23,764 bases of DNA from a virus: positions 1 through 23,764 of the IMG/VR virus record IMGVR_UViG_3300026512_000059. The stretch is one strand, 5' to 3'. A model generated the notes under the pieces. The model saw only the letters and a program-made list of their open reading frames with translations, was not told the origin of the DNA and ran no database searches. The translations under genes and the position numbers were made by a program. Shown here piece by piece: positions 8,210 through 23,695 of this stretch (the stretch's first letter is position 1; every line of letters starts with the position of its first letter).

Positions 8210-8602
8210 TTAAATGGCTATGTTATTGTTTTTCAGGTCATTTATGACTAAATTTTGTAGATATGCACTGCGATTTCCGTTAAACTCTACAAGTCTTTGC
8301 GGCAAAATTTCGATAATATCGCTTCGCATCATCACATTTATTCGCTTCAGTTTTTCAACTTTGACATTGATAAGCTGAGGAATAGCATCTTTTGGAAGAT
8401 CCAAATCATCTCTTTGAAGCAGCTCTTCAAGAGAGGAGGCTTTTGGTAAAGTTTTTAAATCTTCACAGTACAGCTCACTTGCTTCGATGATATTATGCAC
8501 AGCATCTGCAAAAGTCTCTCCATAGCTTGAAGTAAAGTTCAAGTCTGGAACTACTGCTACATAGGTATCATCTTCTTTGTAGATAAATGCTATATACTCC
8601 AT
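8210..8602 (-). CDS. hicB: HicB antitoxin
   Basis: A 130-residue protein. The N-terminal half is the degenerate RNase-H-like HicB fold (YIAFIYKEDDTYVAVVPDLN, then SYGETFADAVHNIIEASELY). The C-terminal part (RINVMMRSDIIEILPQRLVE and NGNRSAYLQNLV) reads as a ribbon-helix-helix DNA-binding domain. It neutralises HicA by binding it and represses the operon through the operator upstream of hicA. Its start has AAGGAG 9 bases upstream. It lies 31 bp after hicA, in the toxin-first order typical of hicAB. The pair interrupts the terminase-portal arrangement and so looks like an acquired unit. Confidence 0.93.
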   Translation of the reverse strand: MEYIAFIYKEDDTYVAVVPDLNFTSSYGETFADAVHNIIEASELYCEDLKTLPKASSLEELLQRDDLDLPKDAIPQLINVKVEKLKRINVMMRSDIIEILPQRLVEFNGNRSAYLQNLVINDLKNNNIAI

Positions 8603-8633: not shown

Positions 8634-8819
8634 CTAGCGGAGTTTAAGTCCGCTTTGTCTCTCTATGTTTTTGAGTGTTCCTAGTGGAACTTCATCTTTG
8701 CCATGGTCAGCAACGATAACTATCTTCTCATCTTTAATGAATTTTTTATGTGACCCTTTTTGGGACTTTAACCTGAAGCCGTTTTGTTTTAAAAGTTTGA
8801 TGATTTCTTTTGAATTCAT
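8634..8819 (-). CDS. hicA: HicA toxin (mRNA interferase)
   Basis: A 61-residue protein from the ATG at 8819, chosen because a near-perfect ribosome site (AAAGGAGGTG) sits 5 bases upstream; an upstream in-frame start would place that site inside the gene. MNSKEIIKLLKQNGFRLKSQ, GSHKKF with the catalytic His, and VIVADHGKDEVPLGTLKNIE are the HicA dsRBD-like fold in full. The protein binds and cleaves mRNA. It is intact, with family-normal length, so it is probably active. In a prophage it may serve stabilisation or phage defence. Confidence 0.94.
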   Translation of the reverse strand: MNSKEIIKLLKQNGFRLKSQKGSHKKFIKDEKIVIVADHGKDEVPLGTLKNIERQSGLKLR

Positions 8820-8836
8820 CTTTTCACCTCCTTTCA

Positions 8837-8898
8837 TATACACATTATACACATTATAGACTTAAAATCTATTTAAAAATATGTGTATAGTGTGTATA
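8837..8898 (-). promoter_or_regulatory. hicAB promoter and HicB operator, four 9-bp motifs
   Basis: Left arm TATACACATTATACACAT (8837-8854) and right arm ATGTGTATAGTGTGTATA (8881-8898) are inverted repeats with one mismatch, 26 bp apart. Each arm is itself a tandem of a 9-bp unit TATACACAT (one unit reads TATACACAC). On the minus strand two TATAAT boxes (8853-8858 and 8844-8849) lie inside the left arm, so repressor binding would cover the -10. Two head-to-head pairs suit dimers of ribbon-helix-helix domains in a HicA-HicB complex. Confidence 0.75.
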
Positions 8899-14327: not shown

Positions 14328-14819
14328 CTACTCCTTCTCTGCAAGGTGTAACACAAGATCTTTTAGTCTTGCATTTGCTTTTTGCACTTTTTCAAGAGCT
14401 TCAAGTATGCTCTTTTGTTCATCTTCATCTATAACCCCGTCACTCATAGACTCTTTTACAACACGAAAAACATCAGAGTTTTTAATGTTGGCAACATCTA
14501 CAAGTAAGTTTATATCTGCTACATCTGCTTTCTCTACACTCTTTTTGACAAGGACCATATCAAACAGTCCTGCTATATATTCAAGAGAAGATAAGTCACC
14601 TGTAAGTTCAAGAAAGTGTATGAACTCACTGAGTGTCATATCATTTTCAGCTTTTGCAGGTTTGAGCTTGTTTGAGAGTGTACCTTCGCTGAGACCTAGC
14701 TCATTTGCCACATCTTCAAAACTAAGCCCAAGCTCTTTACGGTTTAGAGATATGCTGCGGCGAATCATCGTGCAAAGCTTTGGTTCTTTTGGCCGTTTGT
14801 TGTGTATGTACTCTTTCAT
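14328..14819 (-). CDS. phage regulatory protein CII, CP76 family
   Basis: A 163-residue protein. An N-terminal basic arm (MKEYIHNKRPKEPKLCTMIR) is followed by a helix-turn-helix ELGLSFEDVANELGLSEGTL and SNKLKPAK, then MTLSEFIHFLELTGDLSSLE. That order (HTH, 'NKLNP', 'LtldElv.l...tgd') defines the phage CII/CP76 regulators. The C-terminal part (about 110-163) is a helical, charged tail. The ATG overlaps a TAA (TAATG) of a 10-codon frame just upstream. It is the second regulator of the left operon after the Cro-like gene, where CII belongs. Confidence 0.82.
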   Translation of the reverse strand: MKEYIHNKRPKEPKLCTMIRRSISLNRKELGLSFEDVANELGLSEGTLSNKLKPAKAENDMTLSEFIHFLELTGDLSSLEYIAGLFDMVLVKKSVEKADVADINLLVDVANIKNSDVFRVVKESMSDGVIDEDEQKSILEALEKVQKANARLKDLVLHLAEKE

Positions 14820-15052: not shown

Positions 15053-15199
15053 CTACTTTTCCTTTAGTGGTTCTGCTGAGATTCTCATCTCTATAAAATG
15101 GCTACTCTCTGTTATGTTTTTATTCGTAACAGAGTAACCGTACTTCTTAAATATTTTTACAGACTTTTTAACAGCCTTTTTTAATGCCTTGTTTTTCAT
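15053..15199 (-). CDS. 48-residue basic protein, unknown
   Basis: Starts with an ATG that overlaps the Cro-like gene's TAA (TAATG), AAGGATG lying 10 bases upstream. The N-terminal third is strongly basic (MKNKALKKAVKKSVKIFKKY); the rest is polar (TNKNITESSHFIEMRISAEP). Translational coupling to a regulator supports that it is real. No family recognised; it might bind nucleic acid through its basic arm. Confidence 0.55.
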   Translation of the reverse strand: MKNKALKKAVKKSVKIFKKYGYSVTNKNITESSHFIEMRISAEPLKEK

Positions 15200-15456
15200 T
15201 ACGCTACATCCTTGTTGTGATTTGTAGTAGATTTATCAGGTTGAGCTGTAGTATCATTCTTGCATACAATCTCATAAGGAGAAACATTGAAGTATGATGC
15301 TATCTTTAAAATCTTTCGCATAGGGAGTTCTCTTTTGCCGTGAAATGCAGCACTAACCACTCCGGGTTGCAGTCCTGTTGCGTGAGCAAAAGAGAGCTGT
15401 TTTTCACCTTTTTGTTCTAAAAGTTGCTTGATTTTTTTTGTGTTTAGTGTTTCCAT
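15199..15456 (-). CDS. Cro-like HTH repressor
   Basis: An 85-residue protein from the ATG at 15456; a TTG two codons earlier is less likely. Residues about 5-65 form an XRE/Cro-type helix-turn-helix (IKQLLEQKGEKQLSFAHATG, QPGVVSAAFHGKRELPMRKI, ASYFNVSPYEIVC), followed by a polar tail. It is divergent from the CI-type gene and first in the left operon, which is the Cro position. There is no Shine-Dalgarno sequence before the start. If the -10 is the TTAATA at 15469-15464 (minus), transcription would begin about at the ATG, so the mRNA may be leaderless. Confidence 0.8.
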   Translation of the reverse strand: METLNTKKIKQLLEQKGEKQLSFAHATGLQPGVVSAAFHGKRELPMRKILKIASYFNVSPYEIVCKNDTTAQPDKSTTNHNKDVA

Positions 15457-15464
15457 GTGCAAAT

Positions 15465-15540
15465 ATTAACGCTTTGGTAATTAAATACAGCTTAAACTAT
15501 TACTGTTTTGGTAATATTATAATGTTATCATTTTGTTAAT
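15465..15540. promoter_or_regulatory. left operator region (OR-like), three 17-bp operators
   Basis: Three copies of a 17-bp pseudo-palindrome: ATTAACGCTTTGGTAAT (15465-15481), ATTACTGTTTTGGTAAT (15499-15515), GTTATCATTTTGTTAAT (15524-15540). Centres of the first two are 34 bp apart, the third 25 bp further. The first covers the likely left early promoter, the second sits just upstream of the repressor's -10 box, and the third covers the repressor's transcription start. This arrangement resembles lambda OR1-OR3. Confidence 0.85.
15518..15523 (+). promoter_or_regulatory. -10 box of the repressor promoter
   Basis: Perfect TATAAT, 34 bp before the repressor ATG, lying 2 bp from the second operator and touching the third. 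A repressor dimer on the second operator could contact RNA polymerase, while occupancy of the third would block it, so autoregulation is likely. The ribosome site AAAGG is at 15546-15550. Confidence 0.65.
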
Positions 15541-15557: not shown

Positions 15558-16208
15558 ATGGATTTGGTAGACAAAGTAATAGATTTGATTAAAAAAAATA
15601 ACATATCCAGAAAAGATGTAGCAACATATATAGGGATGAAAGCACCTCATTTAAGCGATACATTAAATAGAAAAGGAAGAAAATTCTCAGTTGAACATAT
15701 CCCAAAACTAGCAAAGCTTTTTAATGTAGATGAGAGTTATCTTCTTGGAGATGAATCAAAAACACCGGTCAAAAAGATACCTATCATAGGCACATCATCC
15801 TGCGGGAATGCTGAGCAAAACTTTTTGCAGATAGAGGACAGCTACTGTATGTTTTCAGCCGATAAGTGGCATGAGAAGCTCTTTTGTGTTGTAGCTGATG
15901 GTGAGAGTATGGCTCCTGAGATAGAAAACGGCGACCAGGTCATCTGTGACCCGCTTCTTATGCCAAGGCACGGAGACCTTGCCTACTACAGTGTCAATGG
16001 TGAGAGTGCCATAAAAGTGTTTGTAGAAAACAAAGATGCCGGCATAGTGATGCTCAAGCCTGTCAATGCAAACGAGCACTTTAAGACAACAGTGTTTCGC
16101 ATAGATGATGATATGTTTGGTGATGTGAAGTTTGCAAAGGTTGTAGGCGTGAACAAGACAAACTTTAACAATGTCTCCGCACGCCTCAAGCTTGTTGGTG
16201 AGCAGTAG
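15558..16208 (+). CDS. CI/LexA-type repressor with S24 peptidase domain
   Basis: A 216-residue protein. N-terminal helix-turn-helix: VIDLIKKNNISRKDVATYIG, KAPHLSDTLNRKGRKFSVEH, then LAKLFNVDESYLLG. The C-terminal S24 domain has Ser117 in DGESMAP and Lys153 in SAIKVFVE, 36 residues apart, with Cys82-Gly83 (GTSSCGNAE) as the self-cleavage site, the normal Cys-Gly or Ala-Gly type. It would keep the prophage silent and be inactivated by RecA filaments on DNA damage. It is the only plus-strand gene in the immunity block; its last 23 bp overlap the 3' end of the converging 365-residue gene. Confidence 0.93.
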   Translation: MDLVDKVIDLIKKNNISRKDVATYIGMKAPHLSDTLNRKGRKFSVEHIPKLAKLFNVDESYLLGDESKTPVKKIPIIGTSSCGNAEQNFLQIEDSYCMFSADKWHEKLFCVVADGESMAPEIENGDQVICDPLLMPRHGDLAYYSVNGESAIKVFVENKDAGIVMLKPVNANEHFKTTVFRIDDDMFGDVKFAKVVGVNKTNFNNVSARLKLVGEQ

Positions 16209-17283
16209 AGAGTGTTATCTTTTTTCTTGATGTCGATACATTGATTCTGCCTTCTTGAAGTCTTTCAACCTCATGATCTGTCATGTCAAAATCTTCTCTT
16301 AAAAACTCTACAGAATCGAGAAACCGTATGTGTTCGCTTACTTTCATTCCTGAAAGTTTTACAACTTCACCCTTTTTAAAGTATAAAAACTTACTGAGTG
16401 CTTCGTTTTTTTCATACTTCCATGTTGTTTCATGAGAAAAGCTTTTTGTATCAGCAACAAGTGCATCATACATGTCATCTCTATAGTTGTCTTTTACACT
16501 TTGAATAACACATGTAGTGCTCAATGGTCTTTGCATGATACCTTGTGATAATTCTGCAATATTTTTAAAATCATCAATGGTATAAACTCTTCCGTTAAGT
16601 GTAACTTTAAGTAAATCAAGATTATGAAACTTCGAAAGTTCAGAAAACTTTTGTAAAAGCTTTTTGTAAACCTTTTGTATATTTTCACTTAATGTTTCAA
16701 GCTGCCTTGCAGATCCACATTCTAAATCTTCTAAAACATAAACAAATGCTTCTTTAAAAATTGTCATGTCAACAGTGCTGTACATATCCAGTTTTATACT
16801 TGCTGCCTCTGCCGTTGAAAAATTTTGCGGCTTGTAGTGTGGATTGTTTGCTGCAAGTGTAAGCGAATAGTGCATAATAGTATGAATTGCATAAAAGAAA
16901 AGCATTACTTTTTCTTGAGATTTAGGCTCCATTCCTTTGTGCATATTGTAGTCTGCACCATGAAAATGCAAAGAGTACTGATGATAAATTGCAGCATCAT
17001 CTAAGCTTGCCTGCGTATGTGAAAATGTTGGAAGTATTTCTATATACTCGCTAATATTTCGCAGTGCATCACCTGTATTGATAGTGTACTCTTCTATAGA
17101 CCTTGTTTCTTCATTATATAGTGAATAGGAGAATTCTCCCTTTATGAGAGATACAAATATCTTTTCAAATCCGCCTGTCGCATCTTGAACTATTCTAAAT
17201 GCTTCTTTGTCTGCAACATACGCAAAAAAGATGATCTCACCGCTTGGTGTTTTTACTTCAAACTTTTTAAACTGCAAACTCAT
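16186..17283 (-). CDS. 365-residue protein of unknown function, immunity-region accessory
   Basis: I do not recognise a family. The N-terminal 70 residues (MSLQFKKFEVKTPSGEIIFF) look beta-rich. The middle has a long helical part with several His/Tyr residues (IYHQYSLHFHGADYNMHKGM, FFYAIHTIMHYSLTLAANNP), and the C-terminus is charged (HEVERLQEGRINVSTSRKK). No transmembrane helix, signal peptide or nucleotide-binding motif is clear. Its start overlaps the upstream GNAT-like gene by 4 bp (ATGA), so the two are probably made together and may form a complex. Its 3' end runs into the repressor gene. In this location lambda carries rexAB, so superinfection exclusion or another lysogen function is possible; that is inference from position alone. 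Confidence 0.75.
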   Translation of the reverse strand: MSLQFKKFEVKTPSGEIIFFAYVADKEAFRIVQDATGGFEKIFVSLIKGEFSYSLYNEETRSIEEYTINTGDALRNISEYIEILPTFSHTQASLDDAAIYHQYSLHFHGADYNMHKGMEPKSQEKVMLFFYAIHTIMHYSLTLAANNPHYKPQNFSTAEAASIKLDMYSTVDMTIFKEAFVYVLEDLECGSARQLETLSENIQKVYKKLLQKFSELSKFHNLDLLKVTLNGRVYTIDDFKNIAELSQGIMQRPLSTTCVIQSVKDNYRDDMYDALVADTKSFSHETTWKYEKNEALSKFLYFKKGEVVKLSGMKVSEHIRFLDSVEFLREDFDMTDHEVERLQEGRINVSTSRKKITLSTAHQQA

Positions 17284-17870
17284 CGGATATCCTTATACAT
17301 TCGCAATGCCATACTATTTTTTACCCAGTTGCTAAACCATTCTTTATTTTGAGGTCTCAGCAAAGGAGCTATATCATGCATATCTGCATTACTTAATCGT
17401 TTTGCTTTTTTAGAATTGTATCCTAATATTTCTATCATATAAGTAAATACTTCATTTACCCACATCTCTTTAAATTCTTGAGTTTCAAATTTAAAAAGAA
17501 GCAATGGCCATACGGCAAGACCATCTAAAATAGCAGTCAGTTGCATCTGTTTAAAATTATTGTCAGATAGTATTTGTAAGTGTTTTTCATGCAATTTTTT
17601 TGTGATTTGATGTCGCTTATGTTCTCGCATTAAGGAAATAAACCCTACCTTACATACCTTTCCATTCTCATCACGATGTAATAGTTTTTCATCTTTAAAA
17701 AATTCCATACTCATATGTTCTGTTATGACTTCATCGTTTATATATAGCTCAATATTGTCAGATCTTATATCCTCATCACACACAGTATTTTCAAGACTAC
17801 ATGTAAGACCTATGCTGTTGACTGTGTTTGCATGTTCTATAGTAAAATCATTTATAATGTTAGAGCACAA
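17280..17870 (-). CDS. GNAT-like protein, divergent
   Basis: A 196-residue protein starting at a TTG (17870) with AAAGGT 6 bases upstream; no ATG is available upstream. Residues about 72-130 (VCKVGFISLMREHKRHQITK, KLHEKHLQILSDNNFKQMQL, TAILDGLAVWPLLLFKFE) have the order strand, basic turn, helix, strand, 'DG..VWP..LF' seen in GNAT acetyltransferases. The acetyl-CoA loop, normally Q/RxxGxG/A, reads KRHQIT, without the glycines, so catalysis is doubtful. A late 'SKKAKRLSNADM' helix and a C-terminal basic end follow. It is coupled to the 365-residue gene. A weak -10 (TATACA) lies upstream near 17910. Confidence 0.55.
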   Translation of the reverse strand: MCSNIINDFTIEHANTVNSIGLTCSLENTVCDEDIRSDNIELYINDEVITEHMSMEFFKDEKLLHRDENGKVCKVGFISLMREHKRHQITKKLHEKHLQILSDNNFKQMQLTAILDGLAVWPLLLFKFETQEFKEMWVNEVFTYMIEILGYNSKKAKRLSNADMHDIAPLLRPQNKEWFSNWVKNSMALRMYKDIR

Positions 17871-17955
17871 ATAAATACCTTTCTTTTTTTTAATTTTTTA
17901 AATAAACTGTATAAAATGTTCTTTATTAGTAAATAAAATCAAAAACTATCTTGCA

Positions 17956-18456
17956 TTATATTTTATGCGTTGACAGTATTTCGACATTTACTCCAAATGT
18001 TAATTTGTTTTTTGTTCCGCCAGTGATATCTTTTACAACAACAGCTACTTCAGCATCATCAGGTAGGGATACTATTTCAGATGCAAGTTCTGCTGACAAA
18101 TGTCCTACTTGTGTATCTATTCTTCCTTCTTTTGCCAGAAGCGCAATGGCAGGTTCACCTTTATAGCTGTACACTTTTATATGAAGTTCATCACCAACAG
18201 ATAAGTACTTCTTTATATTTTCTTGTCTACTTGAACCATCATCATTATCATATGTCACACCAACAACTTTTGAATAAAATGAAAAAGGAAAGGAAGCTAT
18301 CTTTTTTTTGTTTTGACGAATTTTTAAAATATATACAATCAAAAATATAGTGGCAACACCAAGTATAGAGTATATATATCTTGTAAGTTCTTCTTCATTA
18401 TCAGCTATAGATGCAATAAAGATAAACGCAATAAGAACAGCAAATATAGTCTTCAT
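17956..18456 (-). CDS. HIRAN-domain membrane protein
   Basis: A 166-residue protein from the ATG at 18456 (AAGGGAG 6-12 bases upstream). Two N-terminal membrane helices, about residues 3-18 and 29-46, precede a soluble domain at 62-161: VVGVTYDNDDGSSRQENIKK, SVGDELHIKVYSYKGEPAIA, GHLSAELASEIVSLPDDAEV, VKDITGGTKNKLTFGVNVEI. This is the HIRAN pattern, a fold best known for binding 3' ends of single-stranded DNA in HLTF. A membrane-tethered copy is reported in some bacterial and phage proteins. It lies next to the right operator with its own TATAAT at 18493-18498, so it may be repressor-controlled. A role at the membrane during DNA entry is speculation. Confidence 0.75.
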   Translation of the reverse strand: MKTIFAVLIAFIFIASIADNEEELTRYIYSILGVATIFLIVYILKIRQNKKKIASFPFSFYSKVVGVTYDNDDGSSRQENIKKYLSVGDELHIKVYSYKGEPAIALLAKEGRIDTQVGHLSAELASEIVSLPDDAEVAVVVKDITGGTKNKLTFGVNVEILSTHKI

Positions 18457-18492: not shown

Positions 18493-18498
18493 ATTATA
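18493..18498 (-). promoter_or_regulatory. -10 box for the HIRAN gene
   Basis: TATAAT on the minus strand, 37 bp before the ATG at 18456, with the first right-region operator (18509-18525) about 10 bp upstream in the -35 area. Repressor may block or activate it. Confidence 0.55.
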
Positions 18499-18508
18499 TC
18501 TTTATAAA

Positions 18509-18559
18509 ATTACCAAAGCGTTAATAATTTAAGCTCTATTTAATTACCAAAGTGTTAAT
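18509..18559. promoter_or_regulatory. right operator region (OL-like), two 17-bp operators
   Basis: ATTACCAAAGCGTTAAT (18509-18525) and ATTACCAAAGTGTTAAT (18543-18559), 34 bp centre to centre. The first is the exact reverse complement of the operator at 15465-15481. The whole 54-bp segment 18509-18562 matches the reverse complement of 15462-15515 at about 48 of 54 positions, including the AATTTAAGCTCTATTT spacer. So the two outward early promoters are paralogous copies under one repressor. Confidence 0.87.
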
Positions 18560-18562
18560 ATT

Positions 18563-18606
18563 CTCTTATCCAAACAAGGAAACCACCTTGGAAGTGGAAC
18601 TTGTTT
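18563..18606 (+). ncRNA. early leader hairpin with boxA-like element
   Basis: CTCTTA (18563-18568) resembles the core of lambda boxA. It is followed by a two-part hairpin: outer stem AAACAAG (18572-18578) / CTTGTTT (18600-18606), inner stem CCAC (18583-18586) / GTGG (18594-18597). It sits at the expected first bases of the rightward early transcript. Such an element could be an antitermination (nut or put) site, or a translation control for the TTG frame whose start is inside it. Confidence 0.35.
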
Positions 18607-18674: not shown

Positions 18675-18721
18675 ACATAAACAGTACCAAAACATTCTCA
18701 AGCGGTGTTAGGTTTTTAACT

Positions 18722-18793
18722 CTCGATGCAGCACATAGCAGTCCCATAGATACTACGACACAGATTCTCCCTGGTATGTGTTGCACAGAGATT
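18722..18793 (+). repeat. 72-bp leader repeat, copy 1
   Basis: First of three gapless 72-bp copies. The arms TGCAGCACATA (starting at repeat position 6) and TATGTGTTGCA (ending at position 64) pair as an 11-bp stem with one G-U. CAG/CUG inside and CUC/GAG outside extend the hairpin. It differs from copy 2 at two positions and from copy 3 at four, all transitions. It ends 8 bp before the AGGAT ribosome site of the gene at 18811. Confidence 0.9.
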
Positions 18794-18810
18794 TAAAAAA
18801 AGGATACAAA

Positions 18811-19098: not shown

Positions 19099-19287
19099 TT
19101 TTACATTTGGGATTTTATTTTGGCACTGTTTGTGGGCACATAAAGTGCGTATGAATCCATTCTCACCCTCATGATGTTTAAAAAACAAAACACCATCACG
19201 ATGCGTGAGGATAGGCTCACCGCAAACATCACACTTAATTCCAAAAGTACACTCATTACCAAATGGTTCTGTTTTTAACATAATCAT
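19024..19287 (-). CDS. 87-residue putative zinc-binding protein
   Basis: ATG at 19287 with AGGAG 5 bases upstream. Cys19-x2-Cys22 (KCDVCGEPILTHRDG) and Cys50-x4-Cys55 (TLCAHKQCQNKIP) form a likely zinc ribbon, with two histidines between (FFKHHEGENG). The C-terminal part is acidic (LTEFFEVFLPNLRFDEDS). A minus-strand TATAAT at 19309-19304, just left of repeat copy 2, serves as its probable -10. Function unknown; small zinc proteins in phages often bind host enzymes or DNA. Confidence 0.65.
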   Translation of the reverse strand: MIMLKTEPFGNECTFGIKCDVCGEPILTHRDGVLFFKHHEGENGFIRTLCAHKQCQNKIPNVKSLESKDLTEFFEVFLPNLRFDEDS

Positions 19288-19320
19288 AGCAACTCCTAAA
19301 GTAATTATTATATCATAAAC

Positions 19321-19392
19321 CTCAATGCAGCACATAGCAGTCCCATAGATACTACGACATAGATTCTCCCTGGTATGTGTTGCACAGAGATT
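19321..19392 (+). repeat. 72-bp leader repeat, copy 2
   Basis: Second copy, with A at position 4 where the others have G. It is preceded by ATTATATCATAAAC, which contains the minus-strand -10 box for the gene to the left; copy 3 has the same 14 bases. It is followed by AAAGGAT and the ATG of a 22-residue membrane peptide at 19411. Confidence 0.9.
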
Positions 19393-19410
19393 AAAAAAAG
19401 GATTAAAAAC

Positions 19411-19728: not shown

Positions 19729-19760
19729 AAAAAACCTTTTTGAAAAATTATATCATAAAC

Positions 19761-19832
19761 CTCGATGCAGCACATAGCAGTCCCATAGATACTACAACAT
19801 AGATTCCCCCTGATATGTGTTGCACAGAGATT
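19761..19832 (+). repeat. 72-bp leader repeat, copy 3
   Basis: Third copy, the most diverged (A at repeat position 36, C at 47, A at 53), still gapless. It is preceded by the shared minus-strand -10 segment, as copy 2 is, and followed by AAAGGATAAGTG and the ATG of a 20-residue peptide at 19846. Confidence 0.9.
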
Positions 19833-19845
19833 TAAAGGATAAGTG

Positions 19846-19908
19846 ATGGAAGATTGGTGGTGGCTTATGCTGCTTTTGTTTATGACAATAGCACTGTTTG
19901 ATGATTAA
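19846..19908 (+). CDS. 20-residue single-pass membrane peptide, cassette 3
   Basis: MEDWWWLMLLLFMTIALFDD: acidic first residues, three tryptophans, one hydrophobic helix, acidic end. Ribosome site AAAGGA 6 bases upstream; the block AAAGGATAARTGATGGAAGA is nearly shared with the membrane protein gene at 20958. It faces the converging membrane protein gene at 19923. Very short, so tentative, but repeated context supports translation. Confidence 0.5.
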   Translation: MEDWWWLMLLLFMTIALFDD

Positions 19909-22474: not shown

Positions 22475-23084
22475 AAAAGTAACAAATGATGCAATACTGC
22501 CAACACGAGGCAGCAAATATTCTGCGTGTGTGGATGTTTATGCAAATGAGAATATAACTATCGGAGCAGGAGAGACTAAGCTTGTAGGGCTTGGTATTGC
22601 GATTGATTTAGATAGCCTTTTAGAAAATGTGCCAATGGTTAAAGATATGAAAAGATGGCACAAAAAAAGGTTTAAGGCTGGTATCATTGATGTTTCTGAA
22701 GAAGATAGTTTAATTCATATAAAAGACAAATTTCTAAAATCTCACTATTTACAATTAATGATAAGAAGTTCGTTATCTGCTAAAGGCTTAATGCTTGCTA
22801 ATGGTGTAGGAGTGATTGACCTTGATTTTGTGGATGAAATTAAGATGAATATTCATAATCCTATAAGTTGGAGTTGTAATGCAACTGATGGTACTTATGA
22901 AGATAATCCAGCATTAGAACATATTCATAGTGGTGCAGACAATAAAGTAGAATATGTAATCAAAAAAGGTGACCGTATAGGTCAATTAATTCTACTAGAA
23001 CACAAGTCAAGCCTCTTTGGAATTGAAAGTGAAGATGAGCGTAATGGTGGGTTTGGTAGTACAGATAAAAAGGAAAACAAGTGA
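22467..23084 (+). CDS. dut: dUTPase-family protein with central insertion
   Basis: A 205-residue protein with AAGGAG upstream. All five trimeric dUTPase motifs are visible: SACVDVYA (19-26), RSSLSAKGL (100-108), GVIDLDFVDEI (115-125), GDRIGQLIL (168-176) and NGGFGSTD (193-200). It would hydrolyse dUTP to dUMP. Oddities: a 35-45-residue insertion between motifs 1 and 2 (about 51-95), Cys21 for the usual Gly in motif 1, and Phe121 where the motif 3 Tyr that contacts the sugar normally stands. Asp118 is kept. Family length is usually about 145-155. Confidence 0.9.
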   Translation: MFKKVTNDAILPTRGSKYSACVDVYANENITIGAGETKLVGLGIAIDLDSLLENVPMVKDMKRWHKKRFKAGIIDVSEEDSLIHIKDKFLKSHYLQLMIRSSLSAKGLMLANGVGVIDLDFVDEIKMNIHNPISWSCNATDGTYEDNPALEHIHSGADNKVEYVIKKGDRIGQLILLEHKSSLFGIESEDERNGGFGSTDKKENK

Positions 23085-23695
23085 ATAATGTAAACATAGT
23101 CGGCAGAATAGGCAAAGACATAGAGTTAAGATATTTACAAAGTGGAAGCGCTGTTGCATCTTTTAGTATTGCAGTGGACCAGAGTTATAAAAAAGATGGA
23201 CAAAAAGTAGAAAAAACAAGTTGGTTTGATGTATCGGCATTTGGCAAAACTGCTGAATTAGTCAATCAATATTTTTATAAAGGCTCGATGATTGGCATTA
23301 CAGGAGAGTTGGAACAGCAAACTTGGCAAGCACAAGACGGATCCAATCGCTCAAAAGTGATAATCAAGATGCAACAAGTGACATTTATTGACAAGAAAAG
23401 CGACAACCAATCAAACAACGCTCAAGCAAATCAGGGCTATCAACAACCGCAACAACCGCAACCGCAACAGTACCAACCACCTGCTCAAGCAAATCAGGGC
23501 TATCAACAACCGCAACAACCGCAACCGCAACAGTACCAACCACCTGCTCAATCAAGCAACGGTGAAGCAAATCAAGGTTATCAACAGCCTGCACAACAAT
23601 ATCAAGCACCGCACGGACAAGTGCCAGTTTATAATGAGCCTGCCCCGCAACAAGCCAATCAACAAAGTGGCTACCAACAGCCGCAAGGTCGGTGA
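23081..23695 (+). CDS. ssb: single-stranded DNA-binding protein, C-terminal frame broken
   Basis: A 204-residue frame. Residues 1-107 are the OB-fold (MNNVNIVGRIGKDIELRYLQ, TSWFDVSAFGKTAELVNQYF). The rest is a Gln/Pro/Asn/Tyr-rich linker with a 21-residue tandem repeat. SSB must end in an acidic tip (Asp-rich, then Pro-Phe) to recruit partners; this frame stops at QPQGR with none, while the frame one base further on (+1) encodes VGDVVLPAIDLDEDEIPF and a stop at 23744. One extra base near 23680-23693, a sequencing error or a programmed shift would explain this. The start overlaps the dUTPase stop by ATGA-type 4 bp. Confidence 0.92.
   Translation: MNNVNIVGRIGKDIELRYLQSGSAVASFSIAVDQSYKKDGQKVEKTSWFDVSAFGKTAELVNQYFYKGSMIGITGELEQQTWQAQDGSNRSKVIIKMQQVTFIDKKSDNQSNNAQANQGYQQPQQPQPQQYQPPAQANQGYQQPQQPQPQQYQPPAQSSNGEANQGYQQPAQQYQAPHGQVPVYNEPAPQQANQQSGYQQPQGR
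23420..23545 (+). repeat. two tandem 63-bp repeats in the SSB linker
   Basis: The unit starting GCTCAAGCAAATCAGGGCTA occurs at 23420-23482 and again at 23483-23545 without change, encoding AQANQGYQQPQQPQPQQYQP and P twice. A degenerate third unit follows. Perfect identity suggests a recent slip or unequal crossing-over event in the disordered linker. Confidence 0.9.

Follow-up and report, generated by a model that had tools for sequence, protein, structure and literature searches.

Prophage immunity slots and the hsdS-hsdR intervals of type I restriction operons are known collecting places of anti-phage genes. The closest described systems are lambda RexAB and other immunity-region exclusion genes, the PrrC/RloC-type accessory genes of type I loci, the GNAT toxins TacT and AtaT, and the cll/beta and PD-Lambda-2-type genes. 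PrrC is embedded in type I loci as a guardian that becomes active upon inhibition of the restriction enzyme by a phage (PMC12707154). Here we analysed a 23,764-base IMG/VR virus record (IMGVR_UViG_3300026512_000059; the window is this whole stretch) for three minus-strand genes between its two operator regions. The trio had been proposed from the letters of the window (hereafter the sequence-only reading), and the open reading frames were found where that reading had placed them:

17956..18456, minus strand: 166-residue protein with two N-terminal hydrophobic helices and a HIRAN-like domain; phage-specific, outside the conserved pair
17280..17870, minus strand: 196-residue GNAT-like protein of degenerate type, from the first gene of the pair; starts at TTG, no glycines in the loop EHKRHQI
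17280..17283, minus strand: 4-bp ATGA stop/start overlap coupling the GNAT-like and 365-residue genes
16186..17283, minus strand: 365-residue partner, second gene of the pair; no named family, homologues with a leave-one-out E of 7e-47

The GNAT-like genes and their partners share common ancestry, are strictly paired, and are located in restriction operons and prophage immunity regions. We consider, with a probability of roughly 60%, that the pair is a prophage-borne two-gene module of Campylobacterota that would serve against phages in an accessory role, by superinfection exclusion or abortive infection, and be expressed in the lysogen. This reading is favored because the pair sits in hsd operons, close to restriction subunits and, in a Mu-like prophage, next to the S24 repressor.

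Like lambda RexAB and other immunity-region exclusion genes, the trio lies between the operator regions of a temperate phage, is presumed to be expressed in the lysogen, and occupies a slot that varies among relatives. However, no sequence relation to RexAB was detected with Pfam, PHROGs, and PADLOC, neither pair protein has a transmembrane stretch, the membrane protein of the window is a separate HIRAN gene, and the pair is also found in chromosomal restriction operons. Moreover, the trio runs opposite to the repressor gene and would have its own operator-linked promoter. The rexAB-like placement in the sequence-only reading has to be corrected in this respect, as the trio converges on the repressor gene instead of following it downstream, and the two share 23 bp at their 3' ends. 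With the PrrC/RloC-type genes, the pair shares the hsdS-hsdR interval (two genomes), which is used for accessory effectors; nevertheless, it consists of two proteins with no recognised ATPase or nuclease domain, and it is also found without a restriction locus. TacT and AtaT resemble the pair in their GNAT fold, two-gene operon, and mobile context, but the cofactor loop of the pair is degenerate, the gene order is reversed, and the partner is large and neither of the ribbon-helix-helix (RHH) nor of the helix-turn-helix (HTH) type. The cll/beta and PD-Lambda-2-type genes (in L003 and L011) occupy the same slot in the same phage group and are unrelated in sequence; they are listed in PADLOC, whereas the pair is not.

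Family of the GNAT-like protein and its partner

Single-sequence searches with the 365- and 196-residue proteins were empty in viral contigs, genome contigs, phages, plasmids, and the PDB. The family was reached via the sister phage L002, which was found by its terminase, then by whole-genome searches with the third proteins of the window and L002, and then by profiles; searches of adequate sensitivity covered the Campylobacterota, phage, plasmid, and viral collections. Against a background of approximately 3,000 open reading frames and shuffled family members, profiles trained without the window recovered its GNAT-like protein at 1.1e-17 and its partner at 7e-47 (the training set of the latter included L052). 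Since the leave-one-out profiles recover both proteins, the homology of the pair is not in doubt on this evidence, and the genes are judged to be real, with frames kept in the homologues.

L002 was found to match the layout of the window, with a HIRAN protein, a 193-residue GNAT-like protein, and a 306-residue partner overlapping the GNAT-like gene by four bases. Co-occurrence elsewhere, which the sequence-only reading had made a check of its proposal, was confirmed for the last two genes of the trio, in L002 and at least eight Campylobacterota genomes. The genomes are G286, G419, G453, G486, G509, G544, G650, and G345, together with G221, in which the contig stops at the partner (L051). The GNAT-like gene lies directly upstream of the partner in the window, in L002, and in the chromosomal loci L045-L050, L052, and L057, and such a gene of approximately 200 codons precedes the partner in every genome having upstream sequence. 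Seven of nine intact pairs have the 4-bp overlap, and the remaining two have a gap of +1 or -1. Furthermore, matches to the GNAT-like family in the nine pair genomes were located only beside the partner, except for two weak matches to ordinary GNATs. The pair was detected at low frequency, in 3 of 397 genomes across the phylum, in 6 real cases among 228 in one family, and in 1 of 175 in another (single-sequence search). Weak profile matches at L042/L053 and L044/L054 were located in unrelated genes and were rejected, as was a weak partial match at L043. PADLOC-DB 2.0.0 (2023) gave no match for the trio or for seven partner homologues, and no description of the pair was found in a literature search of incomplete coverage; a later description may exist.

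The partner agrees with its earlier description as a coupled protein of no known family, given the ATGA overlap and the lack of a usable database match. Partner proteins are 306-365 residues long, with few invariant residues and no recognisable catalytic motif, and the closest relative of the window's partner is L052:8204-9280 (G544; 43% identical). No HTH match was found in the partner, and no DNA-binding domain was recognised in either pair protein. A single TreS/maltokinase match (E = 0.067) was regarded as noise, and no function was derived from a BVU_2266-like match (E = 1.8e-4, one homologue, below the cut-off).

The GNAT-like gene starts at TTG 17870, and an M(x)C N-terminus is common to the homologues. 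The window's protein alone yielded no usable match in Pfam, PHROGs, NCBIfam, PADLOC, or the PDB. However, all 16 PDB matches of the family profile were GNATs (best E = 7.9e-4), and the family member at L048 matched Acetyltransf_1 above the cut-off (1.1e-5). By its membership of this family (1.1e-17), the 196-residue protein is placed in the GNAT acyltransferase superfamily. Matches to HscB/P35 were noise. The description as a GNAT-like protein without loop glycines is thus retained: the pyrophosphate loop (R/Q)xxGx(G/A) for coenzyme A (CoA) is absent from the window's protein, which reads EHKRHQI. Both glycines are kept only in L002 (one of nine homologues compared), whose loop is intact (FQGEGI) and whose protein matches GNAT weakly (9.8e-4); neither is present in the window or in L046. 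Judged from these comparisons, degeneration of the CoA loop runs through the whole family, the chromosomal copy L046 included. Conservation falls instead on L111, on a C-terminal Met, and on a G-x-x-x-W segment in which G117 and W121 are invariant.

The divergence of this protein bears on whether the window holds a decoy or a decayed copy, that is, a non-functional GNAT-like protein, the most divergent of its family, that is a remnant or acts as a dominant-negative against a host copy. The window's GNAT-like protein has no loop glycine and forms the longest branch (3.01) in the tree; in the chromosomal relative L052 (G544), the GNAT-like gene is broken by one in-frame TGA. Nevertheless, frame, start, and coupling are intact in the window, its partner is well conserved (43% identity to that of L052), and the loop loss extends to chromosomal L046, so that a decoy or remnant is given a low probability.

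Genomic neighborhoods of the pair

The pair lies between hsdS and hsdR in G486 (L050), in the operon hsdM-hsdS-pair-hsdR, and in G345 (L057) the operon comprises hsdM, hsdS, the GNAT-like gene, the partner, DUF6088, AbiEii, hsdR, and YgjP. Embedding in an hsd operon was found in these two loci, but not in the phage copies. The partner adjoins a type III Res subunit in G221 (L051), and the pair faces an HsdR-like gene in G453 (L046). An AAA_15/AAA_21 ATPase gene overlaps the partner in G650 (L049), a NucS-like nuclease gene stands after the pair in G509 (L047), and in G286 the pair is located between an integrase gene and an insertion sequence (IS) transposase gene. We also observed that the DUF6088 and AbiEii toxin-antitoxin pair of L057 (6482-8081) adjoins the GNAT-like gene and its partner within the type I operon, as stacked accessory modules.

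In G419, the pair is carried by a Mu-like prophage, where the pair and a 173-residue gene run leftward behind an S24 repressor gene. Genes for a Mu-type transposase and for a TniB/MuB-like ATPase are divergent from this group, and a Mu portal gene is found 14 kb on (1.3e-104). Beyond the partner, three AAGGAACA repeats were found at the presumed left end and nowhere else in the 38 kb examined, and the pair lies between the repressor and these repeats. The pair is thus borne in the immunity region by prophages of two unrelated kinds.

These locations are to be weighed against a role as restriction modulator, in which the pair would adjust or protect the type I enzyme or, in the phage, shield incoming phage DNA from it. 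Such a role would suit the insertion of the pair into the hsdS-hsdR interval of two genomes and its proximity to restriction subunits in a further two. However, no restriction subunits stand beside the pair in five chromosomal loci (the Mu-like prophage included) or in either phage, and we hold a modulator to be improbable.

A toxin-antitoxin or addiction module would have one protein that is toxic and another that neutralises it, and would stabilise the prophage or the restriction locus rather than block phages. This explanation draws on two small coupled genes, on their presence in mobile elements and restriction operons and beside DUF6088/AbiEii, and on the fact that GNAT folds occur as toxins (TacT, AtaT). 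Nevertheless, the known GNAT toxins keep the CoA loop and have a short RHH or HTH antitoxin, usually encoded upstream, whereas both loop glycines are found in just one of nine homologues here, and the partner has 306-365 residues and no HTH match. We consider an addiction module unlikely.

The immunity slot, its cassette, and its regulation

The HIRAN-like protein was described as a two-helix membrane protein, and its hydrophobic stretches were found at residues ~1-20 and 26-46. Its Pfam HIRAN match (E = 0.0064, 16.7 bits) is under the curated cut-off of 24.7; the assignment is backed by phrog_37629 (1.1e-16) and by a relative in L017 (30% identity over 73 residues, BLASTP 1.4e-4), which itself exceeds the HIRAN cut-off (6.6e-7). 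A HIRAN-type protein is present without the pair in L017, and the membrane protein was found in none of the nine pair-bearing genomes, in a search run without a positive control for its sensitivity. A further HIRAN match in G285 (L024) was set aside as a generic HIRAN protein with no pair alongside.

The window and L002 are 93% identical in the repressor, 81% in Cro, 55-57% in the HIRAN protein, and ~17-18% in the pair proteins, and their partners fall into different deep clades (partner tree support 100/99). Since repressors 93% identical accompany pairs of different deep clades, the pair behaves as a swappable cassette. By this comparison, the pair was replaced but the HIRAN gene was kept, and therefore the core module is the pair. 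By these distributions, the HIRAN gene tracks the phage backbone and is not a component of the core module; it is a phage gene next to the module, which does not require it, and may contribute an exclusion function of its own. The trio as a candidate exclusion or defence system thus stands for its last two genes, with their restriction and prophage-immunity contexts, but not for the HIRAN gene, and the idea of a membrane-tethered sensor of single-stranded DNA ends feeding two cytosolic proteins was not supported. At L002 1-275, an extra partial gene, absent from the window, is located directly upstream of the HIRAN gene, and the L002 operon therefore comprises four or more genes.

The same slot holds cll and beta/PD-Lambda-2_C in L003 (2284-4025), cll and a capP-type peptidase in L011 (1571-4210), HSDR_N proteins in L014 and, by similarity, in L016, and the HIRAN protein near PDC-M03B in L017. 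From this content, the immunity slot looks like a defence hotspot of the window's phage group.

The surrounding features of the window are as follows:

14328..14819, minus strand: CII-like regulator (Phage_CP76), downstream of cro
15199..15462, minus strand: HTH protein resembling Cro, on the early leftward transcript
15461..15540: first operator region, three 21-nt repeats (TATTAACGCTTTGGTAAT-like; two good, one weak), spacing 34 and 25 bp
15558..16208, plus strand: CI/LexA-type repressor (HTH_3 and Peptidase_S24); converges on the trio, with a 23-bp overlap of the 3' ends
17955..17984, minus strand: promoter-like site TCGAAA-18-TATAAT (10/12), between the HIRAN gene and the pair
18493..18498, minus strand: TATAAT box resembling a -10 element, presumed trio promoter
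18509..18563: second operator region, two ATTACCAAAGYGTTAAT repeats, spacing 34 bp, inverted relative to the first

The -10 box of the repressor gene (15518-15523) follows the first operator set, and TATAAT 18498-18493 follows the second on the strand of the trio. The trio is placed like the repressor gene, divergent from an early promoter, and therefore its expression in the lysogen is suggested by the promoter and operator layout. In addition, the site at 17955..17984 may give the pair its own promoter. A position between two operator regions, with an inward-facing promoter-like box, would also fit a lysis-lysogeny regulator, by which the trio would adjust the switch, with exclusion as a by-product; in lambda, RexA has an effect on the bias of the switch that is independent of exclusion (PMC11077077). 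However, the pair is also found in chromosomal restriction operons without a phage switch, and neither of its proteins has a recognised DNA-binding domain, which leaves a regulator of this kind very unlikely.

The window's terminase led to 16 viral contigs and five Campylobacterota contigs, the latter labelled Sulfurovum, Sulfurimonas, Sulfuricurvum, Sulfurimonadaceae, and Arcobacter. Since these terminase relatives sit on contigs labelled as Campylobacterota genera, the phage very probably infects a member of this phylum of the vent or sediment type. Judged by its gene content (S24-type repressor, Cro-like and CII-like genes), the phage is temperate.

Some further observations were made in the window. 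The immunity region is mirror-symmetric, as the operators at 15461-15540 and 18509-18563 are inverted near-copies with an equal 34-bp spacing. An extra TTTGGTAAT match resembling a half-operator, possibly by chance, lies at 19255-19263 in the start region of a minus-strand open reading frame. An element of ~94 nt is present three times (82-90% identical) on the plus strand of the early rightward region, at 18717-18810, 19316-19409, and 19756-19849. Each copy sits directly before short plus-strand open reading frames and forms the same long hairpin (z of -4.3, -5.0, and -3.0), with weak sub-threshold microRNA matches only in Rfam; it is possibly an antitermination (put-like) or regulatory RNA. 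Between the terminase and portal regions, 8210-8602 and 8634-8852 (minus strand) resemble a HicB/HicA toxin-antitoxin pair, the translations being judged by eye, and 23081-23695 (plus strand) encodes a single-strand binding protein whose long linker is Q/P-rich and repeated (NQGYQQPQQPQPQQYQPPAQ).

Weighing the defence reading and a possible mechanism

Several points weigh against an anti-phage role of the pair. Its function is inferred from homology and context, and the partner has no match in Pfam, PADLOC, or the PDB and none usable in PHROGs or NCBIfam. AlphaFold models of both pair proteins, built from two-row alignments, were unusable, with predicted local distance difference test (pLDDT) scores of 37 and 41, and the missing CoA-loop glycines could signal a decaying gene. 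Moreover, L052 lies at a contig end near recN with no defence gene beside it, L047 stands among housekeeping genes with one nuclease-like neighbor, and no pair homologues were found among phage or plasmid records, the spread being narrow as far as the tools reach. Finally, the proposed promoters draw on a -10 box and operator geometry, and the promoter scan was close to background, with 23 sites found versus 17.7 expected.

If the pair is an anti-phage module, transcription in the lysogen would start from the promoter facing inward from the second operator, the mirror of the repressor promoter, and the second promoter before the pair may contribute. The partner and the pseudo-GNAT would assemble into a complex, with the pseudo-GNAT held or aimed by the partner. 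A product of a superinfecting phage, perhaps an anti-restriction or replication protein, would be the trigger that releases the pseudo-GNAT, and the released protein would then stop growth or translation. It is a more tentative and somewhat doubtful proposal that the pair is a two-component immune system of a new class, with a pseudo-GNAT not binding acetyl-CoA as sensor or effector and a partner of unknown fold, serving as guardian in type I operons and, in prophages of two unrelated kinds, as an exclusion cassette expressed during lysogeny.

The occurrence of one unnamed pair in both immunity slots and hsdS-hsdR intervals, and in Mu-like as well as lambda-like prophages, is a testable lead for a new defence system, which concerns a little-studied phylum of vent and sediment bacteria. 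Furthermore, the family-wide decay of the acetyl-CoA loop raises the question of what role a GNAT fold may have in conflict after the loss of its cofactor site.

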